Shown piece by piece: positions 38,499-50,271 of a stretch of DNA of 64,000 nt. This DNA comes from Tenuifilaceae bacterium CYCD. GTDB taxonomy: Bacteria; Bacteroidota; Bacteroidia; Bacteroidales; Tenuifilaceae. Both the position numbers and the translations under genes were made by a program. Every line of letters begins with the position of its first letter. Positions within the stretch are counted from its first letter, which is position 1. The notes under the pieces are model-generated. The model was given only the letters and a program-made list of their open reading frames with translations, was not told the DNA's origin and searched no databases. The DNA lies in NCBI GenBank assembly GCA_036322835.1, contig AP027304.1, positions 496,001 through 560,000 on the forward strand, read 5' to 3'.

Positions 38499-39389
38499 AT
38501 GGCTCAATACACGATTAAACAAATGGAGCTGTTATCCGGCATCAGAGCAGCAACCATTAGAATGTGGGAAAAGCGATATACAATATTTTCCCCTCAAAGA
38601 ACCGACACAAACATCCGGAGGTATAACGATGATGATATTCGGTTCATCATAAACATCTCATTACTACTCAAAAAAGGGTTCAGGATTAGTAAACTTGCTA
38701 GCCTTTCTCTAGAAGAACTATCCGACTTAGCCTCAAAATTTGTTACTGATTACAAGTATGGTAACAATAATATAGAGCCGATAGTGTCGGCAACGCTTGA
38801 GTTTAACGAGATGGGAATAATCCAACCCATAAACGAAAGTTCTGCTAAGCATGGCATTGAATATACATTCGAGGCATTGGTGTTGCCATTCCTAAAACAA
38901 CTTGGCGAATTGTGGCAAACTGGAGCAATATCAACTGCACATGAACATTTTGCAAGCAATATTATACGCAATCAAATTAGTAATATTTACAAGAACTCTA
39001 TCAAACCCGATATAGGTAAAGATTCTCCCATCGTATTCTTCCTTCCCGAAGGAGAGTTTCACGAAATTGGATTAATATACTTTGCCTATATAGCCAAAAA
39101 TGCTGGTTACAAAACTATATACCTTGGACAATCAACACCCATTAATGATGCTATTAAGGTTGCAAAAGATCTCAAGTGCAAGATGGTGTTTACTTCATTT
39201 TCTTCCTCGGTTAATACAAGCCCAGAAGAAATTATTGAAGAACTAACTAAGGAATTGCCCTCCGTTCAAATCATTGCAACAGGATACGCTCTTACCGAAA
39301 TAACAATACCTACAAGTATAAACTTTGTTGCCAACGCCCAGGATTTGATTAAGGTTTTTGGGAAAATTGATCCGACCATGGTTCTATAA
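38499..39389 (+). CDS. MerR-family regulator with B12-binding photoreceptor motifs (CarH-like)
   Basis: 296 residues. A MerR helix-turn-helix (about 3-70) is followed by a helical bundle containing W139-x9-E149-H150, the W-x9-E-H motif of CarH/LitR, and a cobalamin-binding Rossmann domain with E186-x-H188-x-x-G191, where His188 would be the lower axial ligand. In characterised CarH, adenosylcobalamin assembles a repressor tetramer that light disrupts. All diagnostic residues are present, so light- or B12-responsive repression is a strong prediction. It is followed by its own terminator and then an ECF sigma gene. Confidence 0.88.
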   Translation: MAQYTIKQMELLSGIRAATIRMWEKRYTIFSPQRTDTNIRRYNDDDIRFIINISLLLKKGFRISKLASLSLEELSDLASKFVTDYKYGNNNIEPIVSATLEFNEMGIIQPINESSAKHGIEYTFEALVLPFLKQLGELWQTGAISTAHEHFASNIIRNQISNIYKNSIKPDIGKDSPIVFFLPEGEFHEIGLIYFAYIAKNAGYKTIYLGQSTPINDAIKVAKDLKCKMVFTSFSSSVNTSPEEIIEELTKELPSVQIIATGYALTEITIPTSINFVANAQDLIKVFGKIDPTMVL

Positions 39390-39622: not shown

Positions 39623-40120
39623 ATGTCACAGCAAGAATTCAATACCGCACTGGTTGAACTTGAGCCAAACCTTGAACGTTTTGCTTACAGTCTTACCGCT
39701 GATCGCGAAGATGCAAGAGATTTATTACAAGAAACTTACCTCAAAGCTTTAACTTATAAGGATAAATTTGAAGATAATACCAATATCAAGGCTTGGACTT
39801 TCACTATTATGAAAAACACATTCATTAATAACTACAGAAAGTCTGTTAAGCAAAACACCACGTTCGACTCGAGTGATAATCAATTCATGATTAACAGCAA
39901 ATCAGAAAACTATGGGCCAGACTCAATGTACTCCCATAGTGAAATTAGTAAGAAGATTGATTCCCTTGAGGATGACTTTAAACTTCCTTTCCAAATGCAT
40001 ACATCGGGATACAAGTATAAAGAAATTGCGGATAAACTTAACCTGAAAATCGGAACGGTAAAAAGCAGAATATTTTTTTCTAGACAAAAATTAATGACCG
40101 CACTAAAAGATTACGAATAA
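39623..40120 (+). CDS. ECF-type RNA polymerase sigma factor
   Basis: 165 residues. Region 2 (about 10-75, with D-L-L-Q-E-T-Y-L-K-A) and region 4 (about 105-160, with K-L-N-L-K-I-G-T-V-K-S-R-I-F) are both complete. No anti-sigma gene follows. In many Bacteroidota a sigma factor of this type neighbours CarH-like regulators and light or carotenoid genes, so control by the upstream regulator is plausible. Pigment genes are not in the window. Confidence 0.92.
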   Translation: MSQQEFNTALVELEPNLERFAYSLTADREDARDLLQETYLKALTYKDKFEDNTNIKAWTFTIMKNTFINNYRKSVKQNTTFDSSDNQFMINSKSENYGPDSMYSHSEISKKIDSLEDDFKLPFQMHTSGYKYKEIADKLNLKIGTVKSRIFFSRQKLMTALKDYE

Positions 40121-40175: not shown

Positions 40176-40278
40176 CTCAAGCATATCAGAAAAAAATGAA
40201 ATTTCCTTCAATTTTCAGGTAACAATTTTAAAGGCATCCTTATAAAACGGTGATATTTATAAAATGAGGTTATGTCAC

Positions 40279-40429: not shown

Positions 40430-40437
40430 TAATTTTA
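40430..40437. repeat. Left target-site duplication of the IS1595-family element
   Basis: TAATTTTA, repeated exactly at 41437-41444. Eight bases is the duplication length of IS1595-family elements. Confidence 0.85.
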
Positions 40438-41436
40438 TATGCATATCCGCTAATGTACCAAAATAATTATCTTTACAAAAACACTTGAGATGAATTTTAT
40501 CGATTTTGTAAAGAAATATCCAGATGAAGCCAGCTGCATAAGACACTTTCGAACCGTTAAGGAGCGAAAAGGAGTCGTCTGCAAGAAGTGTGGCAATACG
40601 CATCATTACTGGAACAAAACCTACAATTCGCACGATTGCAGCAGCTGTGGATACAGAACCACCTTACGAAGCGGCACCGTTATGGAGTCATCGAAGCTAC
40701 CTTTTCAGTACTGGTTGTACGCCATTTACCTGATGACCATGACCAAAAAAGGGATCTCTGCTGCTGAGGTTCAGCGGCAGCTTGGCCATAAGCGCTACGA
40801 ACCGATTTGGGCCATGATGCACAAGATCAGATCGGTCATGGGATTGCGCGATGAGCGGTATGAATTGGAGGGCGTTGTCGAGCTGGACGATGCCTTTTTC
40901 AGAACCCATGCAGAGGACGAAAATGACGAGCTGACCAAAAGAGGAAGAGGCAGTCAGCGGCAAAGCAAAGTTCTAGTTATGGCCAAAGTTGATCCCAGGC
41001 GGGGGCGACCTCGCAGGAACAAAAAGCCATCAGCATTCCGATACGTAAAGATGGTTGTCATTCCGGACTCTTCGTCGAAAACGATGAACAAAGTAGTCTC
41101 AGCGAGCACCAGCTCTTCATCGGTGATTAAGAGTGATGGCTGGCGTGGTTTTAACAAAATCAAAGAGATAAGCTCCAGACATATCAAAAAGATAGTACCA
41201 CCCGAGGAGGCTTCAAGAGTACTCCCATGGGTGCATACCATGATTAGCAATGCAAAGAGAAACTTCTTAGGAGTCAATCACAAAATAAAAGACGTGTACC
41301 TGCAAAACTATCTGGACGAGTTTTGTTATAAAACCAATCGAAGATATTTTGGCAAAGAGTTGTTTGAACGACTTATGGTTGCTGCTGTAGAAGATACTTG
41401 GTATGGTAAAATAAGGTATAATTGCGGATAATCATA
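40438..41436 (+). mobile_element. Complete IS1595-family insertion sequence (999 bp)
   Basis: The left end TATGCATATCCGCTAAT and the right end, read inward as TATGATTATCCGCAAT, are imperfect terminal inverted repeats. The element is bounded by perfect 8-bp duplications and contains one transposase gene whose stop lies inside the right repeat. Length, duplication size and transposase type all agree with IS1595. It separates the two ECF sigma loci. Confidence 0.9.
40490..41431 (+). CDS. IS1595-family transposase
   Basis: 313 residues. An N-terminal zinc ribbon (C-K-K-C near 31-34 and C-S-S-C near 49-52) is followed by the ISXO2-like DDE domain, with acidic residues in V-E-L-D-D-A and K-S-D-G-W. 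No frameshift or stop interrupts it, so the element is probably active. The stop codon overlaps the right inverted repeat. Confidence 0.93.
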   Translation: MNFIDFVKKYPDEASCIRHFRTVKERKGVVCKKCGNTHHYWNKTYNSHDCSSCGYRTTLRSGTVMESSKLPFQYWLYAIYLMTMTKKGISAAEVQRQLGHKRYEPIWAMMHKIRSVMGLRDERYELEGVVELDDAFFRTHAEDENDELTKRGRGSQRQSKVLVMAKVDPRRGRPRRNKKPSAFRYVKMVVIPDSSSKTMNKVVSASTSSSSVIKSDGWRGFNKIKEISSRHIKKIVPPEEASRVLPWVHTMISNAKRNFLGVNHKIKDVYLQNYLDEFCYKTNRRYFGKELFERLMVAAVEDTWYGKIRYNCG

Positions 41437-41444
41437 TAATTTTA
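41437..41444. repeat. Right target-site duplication of the IS1595-family element
   Basis: TAATTTTA, identical to 40430-40437. Confidence 0.85.
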
Positions 41445-41807
41445 AATACTAGAAATCAACTTTACTCAAACTCCATCGTCCCTAAGGACGATAATATTTA
41501 AACCAGTCATAACTACAGTTACTCTACGTTTATCTCTTTCGCATACTTGGTTACATAATTATTCTATTTATAGCACACGTAAAGTTCAGCAATGATATTT
41601 TTCATTTCACAAAAAAATGGATACACAAAATATGGTTTAATGAGAATAGACGTTCAATTGTTACCCGAAAAGATGAGAAATTTTTAGCAAAACAAAGTTT
41701 CAATGTTTTATATCATATTTTCAAGTTTTTAGTCAAGCATTATAATGATATTTTTGAAGTATTTGATATTTTTGTTGATACTCGATTAATTTTCAGTTAA
41801 AAGCCGT
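41445..41807 (+). promoter_or_regulatory. Intergenic region upstream of the second ECF sigma gene
   Basis: 363 bases without a gene. It contains a small hairpin ATCGTCC-CTAA-GGACGAT near 41479-41496 and two TATTTTTG boxes (41749-41756 and 41767-41774) that fit TAnnTTTG, 18 bases apart. They are candidate promoters for the sigma gene at 41808. Nothing else is recognised. Confidence 0.45.
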
Positions 41808-42422
41808 ATGCGAGAATTTACCGATGATGAAATAATAGATTGCCTGAGAAATAGGCAAAGTCATGTTGTTCGATATTTATCGGATAGATACTTGCCCATG
41901 ATTCGTTTAATGGTGCATCAGGCGGGAGGGACTCCCGATGACGCTAAAGACATTTTTCAGGACGGATTAATTATCATGATCGAGAAAATAGATCGAGATG
42001 ATTTTGCACTAACCTGTAAGTTTAAGACCTTTCTTTTTAGCGTTTGCAAAAATTTATGGCGAAGCGTTCTAGAAAAAAGAAGAGCCGCCGCGAACTATCT
42101 TAACCGAAGACTAGACGATTCGGCAATCAATGATTTTTCGGAAGAATACGACCATAAGCTTTATCAGGATTTAATATACGATATATTTGAAACACTTGAT
42201 CCTGTGTGCCAGCAAATCCTAAGGATGTACTGGGAAGAATATTCACCAAGGGAAATTGCCGAGAAGTTAGGCTACACCTATGGTTATGTTCGTAAAAAGA
42301 AGTGTGAATGCCAAGCCGAACTAATCAGCAAGATCCAGAATCATCCTGACTACAAATTGATAAGAAGGACTGAAGAAAATTTCCAAAGACAAATCAACCC
42401 TAAACCAACATTTACCCCATGA
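41808..42422 (+). CDS. ECF-type sigma factor, first gene of the sigma/anti-sigma pair
   Basis: 204 residues. Region 2 (about 20-90, with D-A-K-D-I-F-Q-D-G-L) and region 4 (about 130-180, with Y-S-P-R-E-I-A-E-K-L-G-Y-T-Y-G-Y-V) are intact. The stop overlaps the start of the next gene by 4 bases (ATGA), the classic coupling of an ECF sigma gene to its anti-sigma. It is unlike the sigma factor at 39623 and not a recent copy. The TPR-CHAT protease and leader peptide genes converge on this pair. Confidence 0.9.
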   Translation: MREFTDDEIIDCLRNRQSHVVRYLSDRYLPMIRLMVHQAGGTPDDAKDIFQDGLIIMIEKIDRDDFALTCKFKTFLFSVCKNLWRSVLEKRRAAANYLNRRLDDSAINDFSEEYDHKLYQDLIYDIFETLDPVCQQILRMYWEEYSPREIAEKLGYTYGYVRKKKCECQAELISKIQNHPDYKLIRRTEENFQRQINPKPTFTP

Positions 42423-43441
42423 AAAACTTCGCTCAATACATCATTGATTACACCGAAGGAAATCTTTCCAATGCTGATCGTATAAAGTTCGAGACCGAAC
42501 TCATTCAAAACAAAGACCTGAAAGATGAATATGAACTTTTTCTGCTTGTTAATGAAGTAATGCAAGGGAATATAGACATAGAAGAAATAAATGCAGAAAC
42601 ATCTTTATCCAATGTTGATGAGCAAACAAAACAAATGATAGTTGAATTCAAAAAAGAACCATCAAAATATAAAAGCATCCAAAACTTTGTTGAAAACTCA
42701 CTATATGAGGAAGAGCAAAAAATTGAAAAAGAAATAAACCTAATCACAAAAGAAATCAACGAAAATAAAGTTGACGATATTACTAAAACTTGGGTTAAAG
42801 ATTGGGACAACAGCCAAACTGGCAATGCAAGTTTAAAGCATAAAGAGGTCATACATTTTGTCTCGTCCTCTCTTTCGGATGAGAACAATAAATCTAAGGC
42901 AATTGTAGAACCCAAAATTACGTGGTATAAAAATTCTGCGGTTAAGATAGTAAGCATAGCTGCTGCAGCCTCTCTTGTGTTAATTTTTGTGGTTCGTTCC
43001 CTTCTTATTCCATCTAACCCGGAAAATCTATATGAAACTAACTATAAGCCATACGAAGCATTTACGTCAATAACCAGAGGGGCTGATGATGACTTAACCA
43101 ATAGATATAACCAAGCGATTGTAAACTACAGACAGGGAAACTACGAATTAGCCGCAATGGAATTCGAGATGATTATGAAGAGTGATACCTTTAGCTCTGC
43201 TCCAAAATTTTTTGCTGGTCTATCGCAAATAGAGCTAGGTGATTATGCGAAAGCAATAAACCTGCTTAACAACGTTGTGCAAAACAATGCAGATTACGCC
43301 ACTGAGGCAAAATGGTACTTAGGGTTAACCTACATCAAAACTGGGGATAACAATAAAGCGATACCATATTTTAAAGATTTATCCCAGACACCAGGCTATT
43401 ACCAAAGAGAAGCCAAAAAAATGGTAAAAAAACTAAGATAA
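42419..43441 (+). CDS. Membrane anti-sigma-like protein with C-terminal TPRs
   Basis: 340 residues. The N-terminal half is acidic and helical, with an opening (F-A-Q-Y-I-I-D-Y-T-E-G-N-L) like zinc-less anti-sigma domains. One transmembrane helix spans about 173-196. The exported C-terminal part (about 215-340) has TPR-type helices (Y-R-Q-G-N-Y-E-L-A-A-M-E-F-E). The layout puts a sigma-binding domain in the cytoplasm and a protein-interaction scaffold outside. It starts inside the sigma gene and its 3' end overlaps the convergent CHAT gene by 9 bases. No known anti-sigma family can be named. Confidence 0.75.
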   Translation: MKNFAQYIIDYTEGNLSNADRIKFETELIQNKDLKDEYELFLLVNEVMQGNIDIEEINAETSLSNVDEQTKQMIVEFKKEPSKYKSIQNFVENSLYEEEQKIEKEINLITKEINENKVDDITKTWVKDWDNSQTGNASLKHKEVIHFVSSSLSDENNKSKAIVEPKITWYKNSAVKIVSIAAAASLVLIFVVRSLLIPSNPENLYETNYKPYEAFTSITRGADDDLTNRYNQAIVNYRQGNYELAAMEFEMIMKSDTFSSAPKFFAGLSQIELGDYAKAINLLNNVVQNNADYATEAKWYLGLTYIKTGDNNKAIPYFKDLSQTPGYYQREAKKMVKKLR

Positions 43442-46162
43442 TCGTCTCCTTCTGAAGTAAAATAAGCAAAAAAAAGAAATTAGGAATACCCCTGCTATAG
43501 AAATATATACTTTAACATTGCGCTTAACAGGCGATTTATCACCCATTACTTGATAAGCAGCCCAGTAGTATGGATTTGCATAAGTAGGCGTTGAATTTTT
43601 CAGATAATTCAACTTTGCCAATCGCATTGCCTCATCTTTATCCATTCCTTTCGATAGGTTATGATAAAAACTCGAGATTATTGGTGAACTCGCTTCATCA
43701 TTTACATCCCATAAAGTATTCACCACTGAGGGAACTCCCGCAAGAAAGAAACTCCGTGATAAACTCATAATTCCTTCACCATGATATAAATCGCCAGTTC
43801 CAGTATTGCATGCGCTAAGAACCACCATCGGCGACGATATTTTACTCATGCTTATCTCGTAACTATACAGCCTCCCATCCTCAACTGAATCTTGTATAGA
43901 ATCGAAAATTAAGTATGAATACTTTGAATTAACGGTATCGGTACTAGAGTGCATTGCTAAATGAAGAACTGCAGGTTTTAAGCATAAATGCTTAAAATTA
44001 CTTTCAGTAGCAAATCCATTAGTATAGTTAATGCTGGTAAATCCTCTGCTAATTGAGACTACCTCATTCTTTGCTCCAATTAGTTTAGACTTAGTTGCAT
44101 TACTTGCATAATCGGGCAAAAAAGCAACAACCTTACTCGTATTGACCTTTTTCTTGGAAAAAACAAGTGACGATGAATATGCGTATGAAATAGAATAATT
44201 CCGAAGTAAGTAGTTCAAACCATCAAAGCGCACACTGGGATTGGTAGGTAAATCCTGAACAAACGCATCGAAGGGAAGATACGCAATCTCCTCATCGGGA
44301 ATCACAATAATTTTCGTTCCTGCTAAATCATTTTTAATAGGTTTTATCAAGGTATTATACATATAAGAAAGGGCAATGAGATAACTACGATAGGCCTTTG
44401 GGGAGTTAATAAAATTGGACTTAACTGCGCTTTGTTTTATAATATTAACATTGTAAGCAAACATTGTATCAACCTGCAAAGATTTGAACCGTAATCTATC
44501 CCTTGTAATAGTAAAAATATATAAATCACGCCACCCCTGAGAATAATTATGAGGGATGAAATATTCTACAACAGTCTCATTCCTATTAAGGTTAGCCTGA
44601 AGATCTTTAAGGTTGACGGGCTCTGTTATACTAGCAAGATCTCTATATTGCGTAGAAACCGTTTTAATTTTATCGTAAAGAGTATCGTTACTTCTATTCA
44701 GTTCAAACAATTTATCATTCCAAAACTCTATTTTTAGCGAATCCGGTTTGGCTTTCTGGCTCTCATCCTGAATTAACTTGTTGTACGATGAAATCTGCAT
44801 TCTAAGATAATTACGCTGTATTAGAATAGAATCGGGCGAACTTTTGCTATAAAGAATTTCATTCTCATTCACCTCATCGCTCAATACTCTCGATTTACTT
44901 AATGTTGATATGCTGTACATTTTTTCGATGTACACAGGATCATTTGTTAAAGTGTAAATTTCCTTTGAGATCTCAATCGCCGACAAATACGTAGCCTTCT
45001 CGTTTTCTGCCAAGTACAACTTACTATCATACGATGTGTAGTTATTTCTAATCCTCTCTATCAGCTGTAATGCAAGATTTATAGTTTCATAGCTATGCTC
45101 CATTACCTTTAACTGATTTGTTTTTTGCTGCTGAAGCGCAAACATTTTAAGAGCCTGAGATTTACTTTTAAGATTATCGAGAAGCCTATAGTTAAATATA
45201 GCCGAACTAATTGATGGATTAGAGAAAATGCACGTGTCGTTAAAATCGTTAACAACCGCAATCAACGATTTCTGATAGTACTGAAGCGCCTCCCCATAAT
45301 TTGATTCATTGTAAAAATAGTCGCCTAAGTGTTTGTACGCTAACGAAACAAAAGGATGCTTAGCACCATAGTTCTGAAAACTTATAGCAAGAGCTTTCTG
45401 ATAAATATTAAGAGCCTCCTGATTTCTCCCAATAGAATTAAGGAAAAGCCCATAATCAAACAAAGCACTAGTTATCCTGTAATAATTAGAACCATACTCT
45501 TTCTCAAACCAATAAATACTTTGTTTAAAGCATTTCTCGGCTTTTGAATATTCTTTTGTTTCTACATAAACCTTTGCAATGTTTAAATAAGGCAGTTCTT
45601 TTTCAGTTAAACCATATGCATTTTTAAGATCGAGGCTTTTGAACAGATAGATAAGTGCATCTTTGAAATTTCTATTTTCATATAAGGTTAGTCCTAAATT
45701 CAAGTATGCTGAAGAAACCTTAAAATAATTACTATTATTCTTGTTTAAGCTTCGATATAGTTTCAAACTTTGATTTAAATAGTCAATGGATTTATTATAA
45801 TCTCTTATAATTCCATAAACCCTTGCCTTATTAATATAAACATCCCCTAACTCCTCCGAATACAATGATCTATTATCAATTAATTTTTCTGCCAAACTGT
45901 AATAATGCAAAGACTTATCATATCTACCCAACTTATTATTTATTACTCCTAGATTATTACAAATAGCAACCTTAGACCTGTCTAACAACGAATCTTCGGA
46001 TTCTAAAACATTTAAAAGGCATTTCTCGGCTTTAACAAAATCACCCTGCTCAAAAAAGAATGTAAAATCATTTATACTCTGAACAGAAGTTCTATTCTGA
46101 GCAATTGAAGTGATACTAATAATTAAACAAAAAAACAAAAAGGAGAAGCCACTTATTCGCAT
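43433..46162 (-). CDS. TPR-CHAT protein: exported caspase-like cysteine protease
   Basis: 909 residues from the ATG at 46162, chosen because it opens a signal peptide (M-R-I-S-G-F-S-F-L-F-F...); an upstream ATG at 46204 adds 14 residues. About ten tetratricopeptide repeats fill residues 40-330, a helical linker follows, and a CHAT domain (about 590-870) has the caspase-like dyad His738 (H-L-A-M-H) and Cys785 (S-A-C-N-T-G). A final transmembrane helix and R-R-R-R tail anchor the C-terminus. The domains should therefore face the periplasm. It is co-oriented with the small leader-peptide gene, 70 bases downstream of it. Confidence 0.9.
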   Translation of the reverse strand: MRISGFSFLFFCLIISITSIAQNRTSVQSINDFTFFFEQGDFVKAEKCLLNVLESEDSLLDRSKVAICNNLGVINNKLGRYDKSLHYYSLAEKLIDNRSLYSEELGDVYINKARVYGIIRDYNKSIDYLNQSLKLYRSLNKNNSNYFKVSSAYLNLGLTLYENRNFKDALIYLFKSLDLKNAYGLTEKELPYLNIAKVYVETKEYSKAEKCFKQSIYWFEKEYGSNYYRITSALFDYGLFLNSIGRNQEALNIYQKALAISFQNYGAKHPFVSLAYKHLGDYFYNESNYGEALQYYQKSLIAVVNDFNDTCIFSNPSISSAIFNYRLLDNLKSKSQALKMFALQQQKTNQLKVMEHSYETINLALQLIERIRNNYTSYDSKLYLAENEKATYLSAIEISKEIYTLTNDPVYIEKMYSISTLSKSRVLSDEVNENEILYSKSSPDSILIQRNYLRMQISSYNKLIQDESQKAKPDSLKIEFWNDKLFELNRSNDTLYDKIKTVSTQYRDLASITEPVNLKDLQANLNRNETVVEYFIPHNYSQGWRDLYIFTITRDRLRFKSLQVDTMFAYNVNIIKQSAVKSNFINSPKAYRSYLIALSYMYNTLIKPIKNDLAGTKIIVIPDEEIAYLPFDAFVQDLPTNPSVRFDGLNYLLRNYSISYAYSSSLVFSKKKVNTSKVVAFLPDYASNATKSKLIGAKNEVVSISRGFTSINYTNGFATESNFKHLCLKPAVLHLAMHSSTDTVNSKYSYLIFDSIQDSVEDGRLYSYEISMSKISSPMVVLSACNTGTGDLYHGEGIMSLSRSFFLAGVPSVVNTLWDVNDEASSPIISSFYHNLSKGMDKDEAMRLAKLNYLKNSTPTYANPYYWAAYQVMGDKSPVKRNVKVYISIAGVFLISFFCLFYFRRRRLS

Positions 46163-46232
46163 AGCTATTATGCATAAACTATGCAATAATACAAAAAAGG
46201 ACATTCATTTAATTGAATGTCCAAATCTTTAA

Positions 46233-46430
46233 CTATTTAGGTTTGGTAGTTGTAGTTGTAGTCGTAGGAATTGGTATAGGAATTATAATATCAGCACCAC
46301 CATTATCCTCACCATCGCCACCTCTAACCGCATTCATCTTGTTAAGATCTAGCTCTTGGTTTTCGTTAAGTAAGTTTTTCAGGTTATCTAAAGTGTTAAC
46401 CAAATTCTCGTGTTTGTTCATTCTTTTCAT
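46233..46430 (-). CDS. Small double-glycine-leader peptide (putative secreted peptide precursor)
   Basis: 65 residues. Residues 1-38 are charged and helical, ending L-D-L-N-K-M-N-A-V-R-G-G, a classic double-glycine leader like the GG-Bacteroidales natural-product precursors. The remainder is Gly/Asp-rich, then I-I-I-P-I-P-I-P, seven threonines and K-P-K. Such leaders are usually cut after GG by C39 peptidase-transporters, none of which is nearby. The gene directly precedes the TPR-CHAT protease, so the protease could act on it. Function is unproven. Confidence 0.7.
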   Translation of the reverse strand: MKRMNKHENLVNTLDNLKNLLNENQELDLNKMNAVRGGDGEDNGGADIIIPIPIPTTTTTTTKPK

Positions 46431-46648
46431 GGCTGTAACAGTTTAAGTTAAGTTTTACCGTTACATTCGAATGGATAAGAATATGTTACCTTTCATATTG
46501 AGAAATTTTCTAGCACAATTTAGTTATTTCACTGTTAATCAACACAAACAACAATAATTTTTATTTAAAAAATTTTTTATGAGGTAACAATTTAACCAGG
46601 CTCCATATTAAACACCAAAAATCAATTAATAAACCCAAAACACATAAT

Positions 46649-46897
46649 ATGTCCAAGTTTTACTTAACCAAAAAAACCAGTCTCACGGGGTCACATTCTA
46701 TCCACAAAGAGGGATGCCCTTTCCTTCAAAACGCTGATAAAAATATTGCACTTGGAGAATTTGAATTCAGCAACGATGCGGTCTGGAAAGCCAGAATGAT
46801 TTTTCACAACTCAAAAGCATGCATCTTCTGCTCAAAAGAAAGTATGGCAATGGCTGCCCCGTCATACTATGAATGGAATATGTTTTCGACATCATAG
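46649..46897 (+). CDS. Hypothetical small Cys/His protein
   Basis: 82 residues, unrecognised. H-x3-C-P-F-L near 19-25 and C-I-F-C near 58-61 form a possible metal site resembling zinc-binding tails with H...C...C-x2-C spacing. No signal peptide. It ends 9 bases before the hairpin that marks the former tRNA terminator and is the last chromosomal gene before the integrated element. Confidence 0.6.
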   Translation: MSKFYLTKKTSLTGSHSIHKEGCPFLQNADKNIALGEFEFSNDAVWKARMIFHNSKACIFCSKESMAMAAPSYYEWNMFSTS

Positions 46898-47120: not shown

Positions 47121-48395
47121 ATGGCAAATATCATATTTTATCTTAAATCAGAAAAATTAGATAAGAATGGAAAGGTATCTCTCCTTGCACAAATTACAAG
47201 TGAGTATAAACCTTATAGAATGAAACTGGGGAAGGTTAGGAAACGTGACTGGAACAAAAAGACACAGCGATTAAAGCTTACCTCCTTAACCGAAAAGGAA
47301 TATGAGGAGAATATAAGGTTTAATGTACTAATCGATGAAATAGAGTTTAAAGCAAAAGAACTTTTCAACAAAACTATTAAGGAGAAAAGAAAACCAAGCG
47401 AATTTGAACTAACCAACCTCTTGATTAAACCCCAAGAAGAGGCCATTTTAAAATCAAGTTCATTTCTTGATGTGTTTTCAGATTTTATAGAATCGAACAA
47501 AGCAGATAAGGCAGAGCGTACAATTAAAGGATACATAACCGTTAAAAATTTTCTGATCAGATTTCAGAAAGGAACATCATTCATAATAACCTGGGATAAT
47601 ATTGATGTAAAGTTCTTAGACAAACTCAAGAACTTTACTTTTATTACTTTGAAAAAAGAACTTGGATACTATGCTAAAATAACAAGGGTAATTGCAACTT
47701 TTTTGCATTGGGCGGAAGAAAGGAGTTACTACAATGGGAATATTTATGATAAACTAAGGGTTGATGAACCCGAAAAGGAAGTGATATTTTTAAGTATGGA
47801 AGAAATATTTACCCTTCTCAACTATGACTTTAAAAATAGTAGGCTTGAAAAGGTTAGAGATTTGTACTGCTTTGCCTGTTTTACAGGTTTAAGGTATAGC
47901 GATGTGATTTCACTGAAAAGAGAGCATTTCAACGGTAAACTAATAACAAAAACACAAGTTAAAACAGGAGATGTAAAAACTCTCCCACTTAACAAATTTG
48001 CATTGGAAATTTTGACAAAATATGAATCAGAAAAATCTCCCCTTCCCAAAATATCTATTCAAAACCTAAATGCTTATATTAAAGAAGCTTGCAAGCTAAT
48101 TGCATCTGGACAACCAGAAAAAACAGGCTTTAATAGGCTGGTGATAAAAAAAACAGTTATAGGAAGTGAATCAACTGAGGAAGCCATCCCTCTTTATGAT
48201 GCTATTAAATTTCATACTGCTAGAAAAACCTTTATCACAAATAGCATTATGCTTGGAGTTAACCTTAAGGCCTTACAAGATATGGGTGCTCCAAAAAAAG
48301 AGAAGGATTTAAAAAAGTATCTAAAGATAACAGATGCTTTTAAAAGTCAAGTAATGGATGACTCTTGGAATCTTGTCAATACTTCCCGGTTTTAG
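47121..48395 (+). CDS. Tyrosine recombinase / integrase of the element
   Basis: 424 residues. An arm-DNA-binding domain (about 1-95) and SAM-like core-binding domain (about 110-205) precede the catalytic domain. Active-site residues are Arg258 (F-T-G-L-R-Y), His365 and Arg368 (F-H-T-A-R-K) and Tyr400 (K-K-Y-L-K-I-T). The Bacteroidota phage-integrase family fits. Its position beside the tRNA fragment identifies it as the enzyme that integrated the element. Confidence 0.94.
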   Translation: MANIIFYLKSEKLDKNGKVSLLAQITSEYKPYRMKLGKVRKRDWNKKTQRLKLTSLTEKEYEENIRFNVLIDEIEFKAKELFNKTIKEKRKPSEFELTNLLIKPQEEAILKSSSFLDVFSDFIESNKADKAERTIKGYITVKNFLIRFQKGTSFIITWDNIDVKFLDKLKNFTFITLKKELGYYAKITRVIATFLHWAEERSYYNGNIYDKLRVDEPEKEVIFLSMEEIFTLLNYDFKNSRLEKVRDLYCFACFTGLRYSDVISLKREHFNGKLITKTQVKTGDVKTLPLNKFALEILTKYESEKSPLPKISIQNLNAYIKEACKLIASGQPEKTGFNRLVIKKTVIGSESTEEAIPLYDAIKFHTARKTFITNSIMLGVNLKALQDMGAPKKEKDLKKYLKITDAFKSQVMDDSWNLVNTSRF

Positions 48396-48609: not shown

Positions 48610-50271
48610 TTAGTTAAATAGATTTAATCCAAGCTCATTAAACAACTTTGGAATCATAAAATACCTCTTTTTAATTACATAATCACTAACAAAAGTTGAG
48701 AATGATATAAGAAATCTATCATTTAACTTATTATAACTGTTAATAAGCGATTCTAAACATAAACTTTTATTTTGAAATCTTTCATGGTTCAATATGAAAG
48801 TATTAATATCAACTATTACTACATCATTCACAAGAGAAATATCTATGCCCTCATTCTCAAGTTTTTTTAGTTCTGCATTAAACCACGTTTTTACCAGAAA
48901 ATCAACACCGGGAGTATTATATATGTTATAATGAACTAATAAGATCGGATAAATTGACAATTTAGCCTGCATATGATTATCCCAAGGACAATTTGGCCCT
49001 AAAATTCGTTTAATATTATTAATCAGTTGCATAACCCCAACATCCTTTCTTGCTCCTTCTTTAAAGTAGTGATAGAATTTGGTTTTTAATCCGTTTTCAA
49101 TTTTTGCAAAATCATGTGATTGTTTTATTTTTTTTTCAATAAGAACATCTTTTGATTCAAATAAATATACTTTGTTCTTTTTCCTAACATAATAATCAGG
49201 TTCAGCATCTATTGTTGCATCAAGTCCCAATATATCTTGGCCTGAAAGTTTAATGAAACTTTTAGGGAATGACCTACCAAGCACATTATATACAAGAGTC
49301 TTTTCAGAAAACTCGTCACAAAAAGTACTTCTGAAATTTAAAAATCCATCATGAATATCGTCGTTAATTTTTGACATTGTAAAGTACAATCCATTGTATA
49401 GTTTTTCAATTACAAAAAGAACATGTATAATCCTATATTTTCCATTGTCCAGTTTAAAAAATGGCTTACTACGGCATGTTAAGAAGTCAAAATCATCAAT
49501 AGTATACTCATTATTTACTATCAAATTTTCAAGAAATTTGCAATTAGCCTCAAAATTTTTGTCCTCAGGAACAACTAAATCAATTGGTTTCGAGAGATCT
49601 GAGTTTAGTATAGAGTGAAAAATTGGCATATATTTCTTCAAATATGCTTTCCAATCTTTAATTTGTTCTTGTTTGTAAAATTCCTCAAGTATTCTTTTTG
49701 ACGTAGCATTATGGGTTTCAAGAAATTTAAAAAAAAGTGATGCTTTTATGAACTGTGATATTTCAAGTTCATTAACCTTGAAATTGTTCAAATCATAATC
49801 ACAAAAAGCGGCAGTAAGTAGTAAACAGGGCAACTTTGCTTTGGCATCAAGATCTTTGGTGCTATCACCAATAGTCTTATCTCTAAGGTTGAAATCTTGA
49901 TTTAATGCTAATACGGATTTAAATAATTGAATTTCAAATTCATTTTCTGAAATAGTAGTTTCTTCCGGATTATTCAACAATATGAATTCAAATATTTTCA
50001 ATATGTTAAATACAACAATTAATTTGATATTCTTTTCCTTTAATAATTTTAATTTTGAAATAATTTCATTTGAAAACTTCTCGTTTTTATCTGAAAACCA
50101 TTTCTCAATCTGATATTTTGGATCAACAGTTTCCTTTCCCCATATTGTTGTAGAAACAAATAAGGTACAAAATTTTACAATATCCTTTTTCCCAATCTTT
50201 GCAAGATATTCCTTAAAATCTCTCACTTCATCATCGAAAAAATCTTTGTATTCAAGAAGATAATAGGTCAT
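48610..50271 (-). CDS. Hypothetical PD-(D/E)XK nuclease-like protein
   Basis: 553 residues, not a named family. Residues 355-375 carry P-D359-Y-Y-V then E372-S-K374 in a predicted strand (V-Y-L-F-E-S-K-D), the spacing of PD-(D/E)XK nucleases. The N-terminal 330 residues are helical without motif. It is a single gene on the strand opposite its neighbours, next to the integrase, with AT-rich composition. A role as a restriction or abortive-infection nuclease is plausible from position; other nuclease roles are not excluded. Confidence 0.55.
   Translation of the reverse strand: MTYYLLEYKDFFDDEVRDFKEYLAKIGKKDIVKFCTLFVSTTIWGKETVDPKYQIEKWFSDKNEKFSNEIISKLKLLKEKNIKLIVVFNILKIFEFILLNNPEETTISENEFEIQLFKSVLALNQDFNLRDKTIGDSTKDLDAKAKLPCLLLTAAFCDYDLNNFKVNELEISQFIKASLFFKFLETHNATSKRILEEFYKQEQIKDWKAYLKKYMPIFHSILNSDLSKPIDLVVPEDKNFEANCKFLENLIVNNEYTIDDFDFLTCRSKPFFKLDNGKYRIIHVLFVIEKLYNGLYFTMSKINDDIHDGFLNFRSTFCDEFSEKTLVYNVLGRSFPKSFIKLSGQDILGLDATIDAEPDYYVRKKNKVYLFESKDVLIEKKIKQSHDFAKIENGLKTKFYHYFKEGARKDVGVMQLINNIKRILGPNCPWDNHMQAKLSIYPILLVHYNIYNTPGVDFLVKTWFNAELKKLENEGIDISLVNDVVIVDINTFILNHERFQNKSLCLESLINSYNKLNDRFLISFSTFVSDYVIKKRYFMIPKLFNELGLNLFN

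Follow-up and report, generated by a model that had tools for sequence, protein, structure and literature searches.

The window, as we call the whole 64-kb stretch of DNA analysed here, carries a conserved locus that joins an ECF sigma factor, a TPR membrane protein presumed to be its anti-sigma factor, a TPR-CHAT protease and a double-glycine (GG) leader peptide. A promoter-like motif of this locus recurs ahead of GG-peptide and RiPP genes elsewhere in the genome (3.92 Mb). The best-supported account of these features, in which we place moderate confidence, is a peptide-linked proteolytic switch for the ECF sigma factor.

Results

Genes of the locus

The locus contains the following genes:

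41808..42422, + strand: ECF sigma factor gene, 204 aa (Sigma70_r2; TIGR02937 above cutoff)
42419..43441, + strand: TPR membrane protein, presumed anti-sigma, 340 aa (TPR models, predicted topology, overlap with the sigma gene)
43433..46204, - strand: TPR-CHAT protease, 923 aa (PF12770, dyad, predicted model, fold search)
46233..46430, - strand: GG-leader peptide gene, 65 aa, leader 1-38 and core 39-65 (conserved upstream of CHAT)
46649..46897, + strand: 82-aa protein, fifth conserved gene of window-type loci (conserved His and Cys)

All four genes named in the initial annotation (sigma factor, TPR membrane protein, TPR-CHAT and GG peptide) are present in the window. The overlap that it claimed between the sigma and TPR genes measures 4 nt. 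The TPR-CHAT gene converges on this pair, and its end overlaps that of the TPR gene by 9 nt. The GG peptide gene lies on the CHAT strand, 28 nt upstream, and the 82-aa ORF is divergent from it. The 82-aa protein gave no match in Pfam and NCBIfam scans; its family is found beside 12 distinct window-type loci, a term that we use for loci of one layout, in which sigma and anti-sigma genes converge on CHAT and the peptide gene is on the CHAT strand. This fifth gene was absent from the initial annotation, as were the promoter motif, the link to C39 exporters and the RiPP targets described below.

Just upstream of the locus lie the genes of a MerR protein with B12-binding domains (38499-39389) and of a second ECF sigma factor (39623-40120), and ORFs of both sizes recur in locus L067 of genome G002. 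A 553-aa ORF without a Pfam match (48610-50271) adjoins a phage-type integrase gene (47121-48395).

Sigma factor and presumed anti-sigma factor

The sigma protein matched Sigma70_r2 (32.3 bits, cutoff 24) and TIGR02937 (62.1, cutoff 42.9). Its region 4 scored 25.0 bits against Sigma70_r4_2, slightly below the cutoff of 25.7, and the protein is assigned to the ECF sigma factors on regions 2 and 4, the latter marginally below the Pfam cutoff.

In the TPR membrane protein, TPR_6, TPR_16 and TPR_2 were above cutoff. The predicted model (pLDDT 83.8, pTM 0.47) comprises a helical cytoplasmic part, a TM segment (the helix at about 175-195), a linker and a TPR solenoid, which would be extracytoplasmic. 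The linker carries the pattern L[FY]xxYYxP...VTR, whose juxtamembrane Arg (R220) is present in 37 of 39 aligned sequences. The protein had been labelled anti-sigma-like beforehand. Gene position and topology, namely the overlap with the sigma gene and the single TM segment, are the reason why we keep the name; an anti-sigma domain was matched neither by Pfam nor by fold. The structure search matched TPR only, and assignment by that route was dropped for this reason; the result also counts against the switch. We refer to the protein as the presumed anti-sigma factor.

TPR-CHAT protease

The CHAT protein matched PF12770 at 168 bits (cutoff 24). The His/Cys dyad, reported earlier as intact, consists of H748/H752 and C799, which are invariant across 32 aligned sequences and place the protein among the CHAT proteases; the C785 of the initial annotation is the same Cys counted from Met15. 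The protein had also been described as exported. A hydrophobic segment is present at the N-terminus and a TM segment with a basic tail at the C-terminus, and from these segments CHAT is predicted to be membrane-anchored and to face outward; they also suggest export.

The top structural match of the predicted CHAT model (pLDDT 84.1) was Craspase Csx29 (Z 28.9 over 577 residues, rmsd 6.3), which supports the earlier analogy with Craspase at the level of fold. The second match was the separase protease domain (Z 26.0 over 304 residues, rmsd 3.1), and the anti-sigma factor DdvA came lower (Z 21.3, 448 residues, rmsd 14.2). The TPR part aligned to RapI (Z 21.4) and PlcR (Z 20.2), as it did to many TPR proteins. 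A shared fold is no proof of a shared function. Release of sigma by a CHAT cut in the anti-sigma ectodomain would fit the topology and the conserved juxtamembrane Arg. Clostripain and separase prefer Arg, and the Arg of the anti-sigma linker may be the cut site. The window's genome has three other CHAT genes, without a TM tail and without sigma, anti-sigma or peptide genes nearby, and they rule out, for this genome, that any CHAT would do.

Conservation among relatives

The sample comprised 118 distinct CHAT proteins of at least 800 aa. After 24 were dropped for short flanks, 94 with adequate flanks were left, 86 with a C-terminal TM segment and 8 without. Part of the loci were chosen partly by anti-sigma matches, and 80 further loci were picked by CHAT alone from named genomes; the loci of near relatives come from Bacteroidota or Bacteroidales MAGs.

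Matches to the CHAT and TPR proteins fell side by side in related genomes. Of the 86 TM-anchored CHATs, 74 had an anti-sigma-like gene in their neighbourhood, 54 had a sigma gene and 10 had a C39 protein; the corresponding counts for the 8 CHATs without the TM tail were 4, 2 and 0, with no peptide. The 48 full-flank loci picked by CHAT alone gave 41 with anti-sigma, 39 with sigma, 14 with the peptide and 3 with C39. A GG peptide was found within 1.2 kb upstream of 42 of the 86 TM-anchored CHATs versus 5 of 246 control genes lying more than 3 kb away from CHAT (Fisher p 1e-23), and the loci are related to each other, which makes this and the following p value a rough guide only. Paralogues inflate these totals, as genomes G005 and G016 contribute 23 loci, 20 of them with the peptide; when both were excluded, the peptide was upstream of 22 of 65 CHATs (p 2e-12). 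A lack of conservation of the four genes as a set had been named beforehand as one of two outcomes that would refute the initial annotation, and they do recur together in relatives. A chance neighbourhood is ruled out by the conservation of the set and of the peptide as a protein.

The loci differ in layout. Window-type CHATs are about 910-950 aa long with a same-strand peptide (the window-type contigs of G001 and G022 stop short of the peptide). The 23 paralogous CHATs of G005 and G016 (L074-L106) mostly have an anti-sigma-like gene and a divergent GG peptide. The upstream peptide, present at 20 of the 23, mostly lies within 90 nt; in L112 and L113 the distance reaches 240 nt, and in L109, the only one of these loci with an adjacent sigma gene, it is about 1.1 kb. 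L086 has a dozen tandem peptides plus a broken CHAT copy. In G048, a distant relative, short GGDGD peptides with a proline run and HGG at the end adjoin sigma and CHAT (L091-L093, L098). In L097 and L221 of G040, sigma, anti-sigma, a C39 exporter and HlyD stand in a row, and CHAT was not found in the fetched stretch. Many long-CHAT loci have GTATTACC- or GGGTAACC-type boxes ahead of sigma.

Two of these layouts speak against the switch. Many CHAT/anti-sigma sets of G005 and G016 are without an adjacent sigma gene, and the loci of long CHATs (at least 1030 aa) are mostly without a peptide, which is upstream in 4 of 36. A 405-aa secreted protein is found beside 24 of these 36 long CHATs; in L157, L164-L178 and L182-L201 it is encoded upstream of CHAT, in the place of the peptide. 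It is conceivable from this replacement, and from the exporter genes among the motif targets, that TPR-CHAT and the TPR anti-sigma sense secretion or envelope stress, such as jammed export or misfolded cargo, and that the peptide serves as tracer or cargo and is no pheromone. We judge this rather unlikely, because the conserved peptide core at window-type loci and the retention of peptides at nearly all paralogous CHATs of G005 and G016 suit specific recognition.

GG peptide and C39 exporters

The window peptide scored 15.5 bits against Bacteroid_pep, below the cutoff of 25, and was 33-62% identical to those of four relatives. The GG is conserved among the aligned peptides, a leader type shared with double-glycine pheromone circuits. 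A profile built from five peptides and run on 60 whole genomes (E up to 0.1) gave 21 matches, five of which were the profile's own rows. CHAT loci account for nine of the other 16: G048 has three of these, G009 has two, G016:C12, G005:C16 and G040 have one each, and in G019 a second peptide was matched. The seven matches away from CHAT loci comprise three close to a C39 protein in G016:C14, single ones in G018, G038 and G041, and one in G003 at the end of a contig. The pattern used to search for GG peptides was our own, and miscalls are possible.

The window-type core in the nearest relatives, e.g. DGEDNGGxDIIIPxPK, is free of Cys and without an adjacent maturase, as would suit a plain signal. 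The precursors among the motif targets are often Cys-rich and accompanied by maturases, which fits products.

C39 exporters cut at GG. None adjoins the window locus; they are near 10 of the 86 related CHAT loci, nine times with HlyD, and the only one detected in the window's genome is inside a motif-led operon. These exporters bear on the possibility that the GG peptide is matured by CHAT, which leaves the anti-sigma factor alone, the trimmed peptide then binding the anti-sigma TPR part and releasing sigma. Peptide and CHAT are neighbours or form one operon, many of the peptides are acidic after GG, and the window locus itself has no adjacent C39 exporter, all of which would suit such a role. 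Against it stand the GG cutters beside CHAT loci and in the window's genome, and the long-CHAT loci, which retain CHAT and anti-sigma mostly without a peptide. We consider maturation by CHAT unlikely.

Promoter motif

A promoter-like motif, GTAACA-N12-TTC-NN-AT-NN-AAC, precedes all 16 same-strand peptide genes, its end lying 25-46 nt before the ATG. At least 12 of its 14 fixed letters were matched in 15 genes and 11 in L067, and shuffles reached 12 in 0.1%. Ahead of divergent peptides the motif was not found, the best matches having 8-10 of 14 letters, the same as shuffles. The window contains these sites:

46460..46489, - strand: perfect copy of the ECF-type promoter motif, ahead of the peptide-CHAT operon, with 29 nt to the ATG of the peptide gene
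46584..46613, + strand: copy with 1 mismatch, 35 nt upstream of the 82-aa gene
41635..41664, - strand: promoter motif, perfect, divergent from sigma, here towards an insertion sequence and in relatives towards a PAS-histidine kinase gene
40219..40248, + strand: copy with 1 mismatch, likewise directed at this insertion sequence

These were the only matches above score 12 in the 64 kb, all within 40.2-46.7 kb, and the reversed control gave none. The insertion sequence is of the IS1595 type (40435-41437, PF12762 81 bits), with identical copies in L311 and L316; it sits between the two sites that read towards it, where relatives have the PAS-histidine kinase gene.

The 35 sites used for a weight matrix include some that share a locus, so that only its zero counts (27 loci and reversed sequence) are independent. 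With scores above 20 the matrix gave 30 matches, which fell in 15 of the 17 window-type loci, L144 and L146 being the exceptions, versus none in the reversed sequence and none in 27 other CHAT loci (505 kb). A single motif for all CHAT loci is ruled out by its absence from these 27 loci and from the divergent peptides. Behind the matches lie the peptide and CHAT genes, in L138 and L140 the Cys/His gene, and in eight loci, divergent from sigma, genes of PAS-histidine kinase type; the one such gene scanned (L142) has HisKA and HATPase_c. The weight matrix search saw no motif ahead of the locus sigma gene, and autoregulation of sigma through the motif was dropped for that reason. Against the switch stand this absence and the lack of the motif in divergent-peptide and long-CHAT loci and in L144/L146.

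Perfect copies were found in all seven genomes with a window-type locus (six each in G000 and G022, five each in G011 and G033, four in G019, two in G002 and one in G001) versus 1 of 53 others, G009, with a single copy (Fisher p 2e-8). Because perfect copies track the window-type locus in this way, we infer from the correlation between genomes that the locus sigma factor reads the motif. Other ECF sigma genes of the genome, such as that at 39623-40120, could also read it, which is a further point against the switch. The locus sigma would then have a small local or unknown regulon. ECF sigma factors are numerous in Bacteroidota, and the motif is missing before the locus sigma gene; yet the 7/7 distribution of perfect copies and the position of all four window matches at this locus count against another sigma factor, which we regard as quite improbable.

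Motif targets

The window's genome contains 19 motif sites with at most 1 mismatch versus 5 for the backwards pattern. Four of the 19 are inside ORFs of more than 500 aa and look like chance. Six of the remaining 15 directly head GG-peptide or RiPP genes, including this locus (542460). The site at 3793095 leads an HTH gene, behind which come three GG precursors, a radical-SAM protein and, with HlyD, the one C39 exporter detected in this genome. Those at 3844915 and 3797737 head two grasp-with-spasm sets; at 2644953 the HTH gene is accompanied by three GG precursors and one radical-SAM/SPASM gene; and the site at 2738459 heads a GG peptide of 70 aa. A further site, 3840786, is 0.7 kb ahead of an HTH and GG-peptide set that has its own 2-mismatch site, and 542584 and 2300924 precede the Cys/His gene and its paralogue. 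The last six sites lead to other or unclear genes or an insertion sequence.

In G019, one site heads a lanthipeptide cluster, in which an HTH gene and a GG precursor stand with LanC (165 bits) and a split LanB (481 and 230 bits), and another heads radical-SAM maturases (TIGR04148 323 bits, cutoff 300). In the reverse check on the seven window-type genomes, 4 of 7 matches to TIGR04192 (grasp-with-spasm) or LanC had the motif upstream, one weakly (score 23.2), and in the other 3 of 7 it was missing, which counts against the switch. The first gene behind the motif, ahead of the GG precursors, often encodes a small HTH protein of about 90-110 aa (L225, L226, L235, L299, L300, L303 and L306; one with HTH_11). 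These proteins may be cluster-specific regulators.

Discussion

In the switch that we favor, the TPR anti-sigma factor would hold sigma at the inner membrane, which would also anchor the outward-facing TPR-CHAT protease. A C39 ABC exporter would export the GG peptide and remove its leader, and one of the two TPR parts, that of CHAT or that of the anti-sigma factor, would then sense the peptide. Activated CHAT would cut the anti-sigma factor just outside the membrane, most likely in the YYxP...VTR segment, and further proteolysis would then free sigma. The freed sigma would transcribe the peptide-CHAT operon, which provides feedback, and the 82-aa Cys/His gene, as well as the PAS-histidine kinase gene in relatives and unlinked GG-leader RiPP clusters. 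Gene set, orientation, dyad, membrane segments, motif, motif targets and fold come from the computation; the binding of sigma by the TPR protein, the cut, the role of the peptide as the signal and the sign of the feedback are what we infer. The interpretation given in the initial annotation, release of sigma by CHAT processing of the peptide or the anti-sigma TPR domain, is as a whole partly supported.

A more specific form of this account is tentative. In it, the membrane-anchored, caspase-like TPR-CHAT protease would be the receptor of a Gram-negative peptide-pheromone circuit: once the exported GG peptide binds it, it would cut the anti-sigma factor after the conserved juxtamembrane Arg, and sigma would then switch RiPP clusters of the lanthipeptide, graspetide and radical-SAM kinds and their exporter across the genome, with positive feedback on peptide and protease.

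Parts of this design are known from other systems. Type III-E CASP couples the TPR-CHAT protein Csx29, Csx30 and CASP-sigma, as described in the accessible text of PMC10028731. Like CASP as outlined there, the present locus ties a TPR-CHAT of the same fold (Z 28.9) to an ECF sigma factor and a presumed inhibitor and has several motif sites; it differs in the predicted membrane anchors of CHAT and inhibitor, in its GG peptide and in the RiPP genes among the motif targets. Proteolytic sigma release of the RseA/DegS type, named in the same text, also has a membrane anti-sigma with an extracytoplasmic domain and an outward-facing first protease, which here would be a CHAT cysteine protease standing where DegS does.

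Since Craspase has the fold closest to CHAT, the locus could also be taken for a CRISPR-free defence module, with CHAT as a conflict protease and the peptide as a toxin or its trigger. This is very improbable: RiPP genes are motif targets, and no cas genes were found among the ten proteins scanned around the locus (38.5-50.3 kb), which also separates it from type III-E CASP/Craspase. DdvS/DdvA of Myxococcus xanthus reportedly controls a type III CRISPR-Cas. DdvA, the anti-sigma factor of the ECF sigma DdvS in the sections of PMC4374960 available, is the transmembrane chain (8rot, 8rw5) that the TPR-CHAT model of the window matched (Z 21.3). DdvA combines anti-sigma, TM and TPR-CHAT-like parts in one chain, whereas here anti-sigma and TPR-CHAT are two proteins encoded by two genes, plus the peptide. 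In Myxococcus and relatives, metacaspase operons with sigma factors likewise place a protease of caspase fold next to sigma factor genes; these proteases are metacaspases, not CHAT, and the portion of PMC3501461 available mentions no GG peptide.

The pneumococcal GG pheromones Com and Blp induce bacteriocin genes, according to the accessible part of PMC7595303. The present locus resembles them in its GG peptide and, as proposed here, in the use of a C39-type exporter and in a putative induction of bacteriocin-type genes with feedback; of such an induction, the sequence shows a promoter motif shared by the peptide and RiPP genes. Com and Blp use a histidine kinase and a response regulator, whereas CHAT, anti-sigma and ECF sigma factors are proposed here; a PAS-histidine kinase gene adjoins sigma in relatives of the window. 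RRNPP receptors are cytosolic TPR regulators that bind an imported peptide; the TPR part of CHAT aligns to RapI and PlcR, as to many TPR proteins, and the prediction for CHAT is a membrane-anchored, outward-facing protein.

In the literature covered, which is mostly without subscription papers, none joins CHAT, GG peptide, ECF sigma/anti-sigma and RiPP targets. By term search, the word 'sigma' is absent from a survey of Bacteroidales RiPPs (PMC10352776), and both 'sigma' and 'CHAT' are absent from a graspetide survey (PMC8939145). Judged by these two term searches, the control of GG-leader RiPP production in Bacteroidota is a largely open question. If the switch is true, the motif and the sigma factor would provide a direct handle to switch on silent peptide clusters, and the control of ECF sigma factors by CHAT proteases, known from a CRISPR system, would be part of a wider, outward-facing signalling design.
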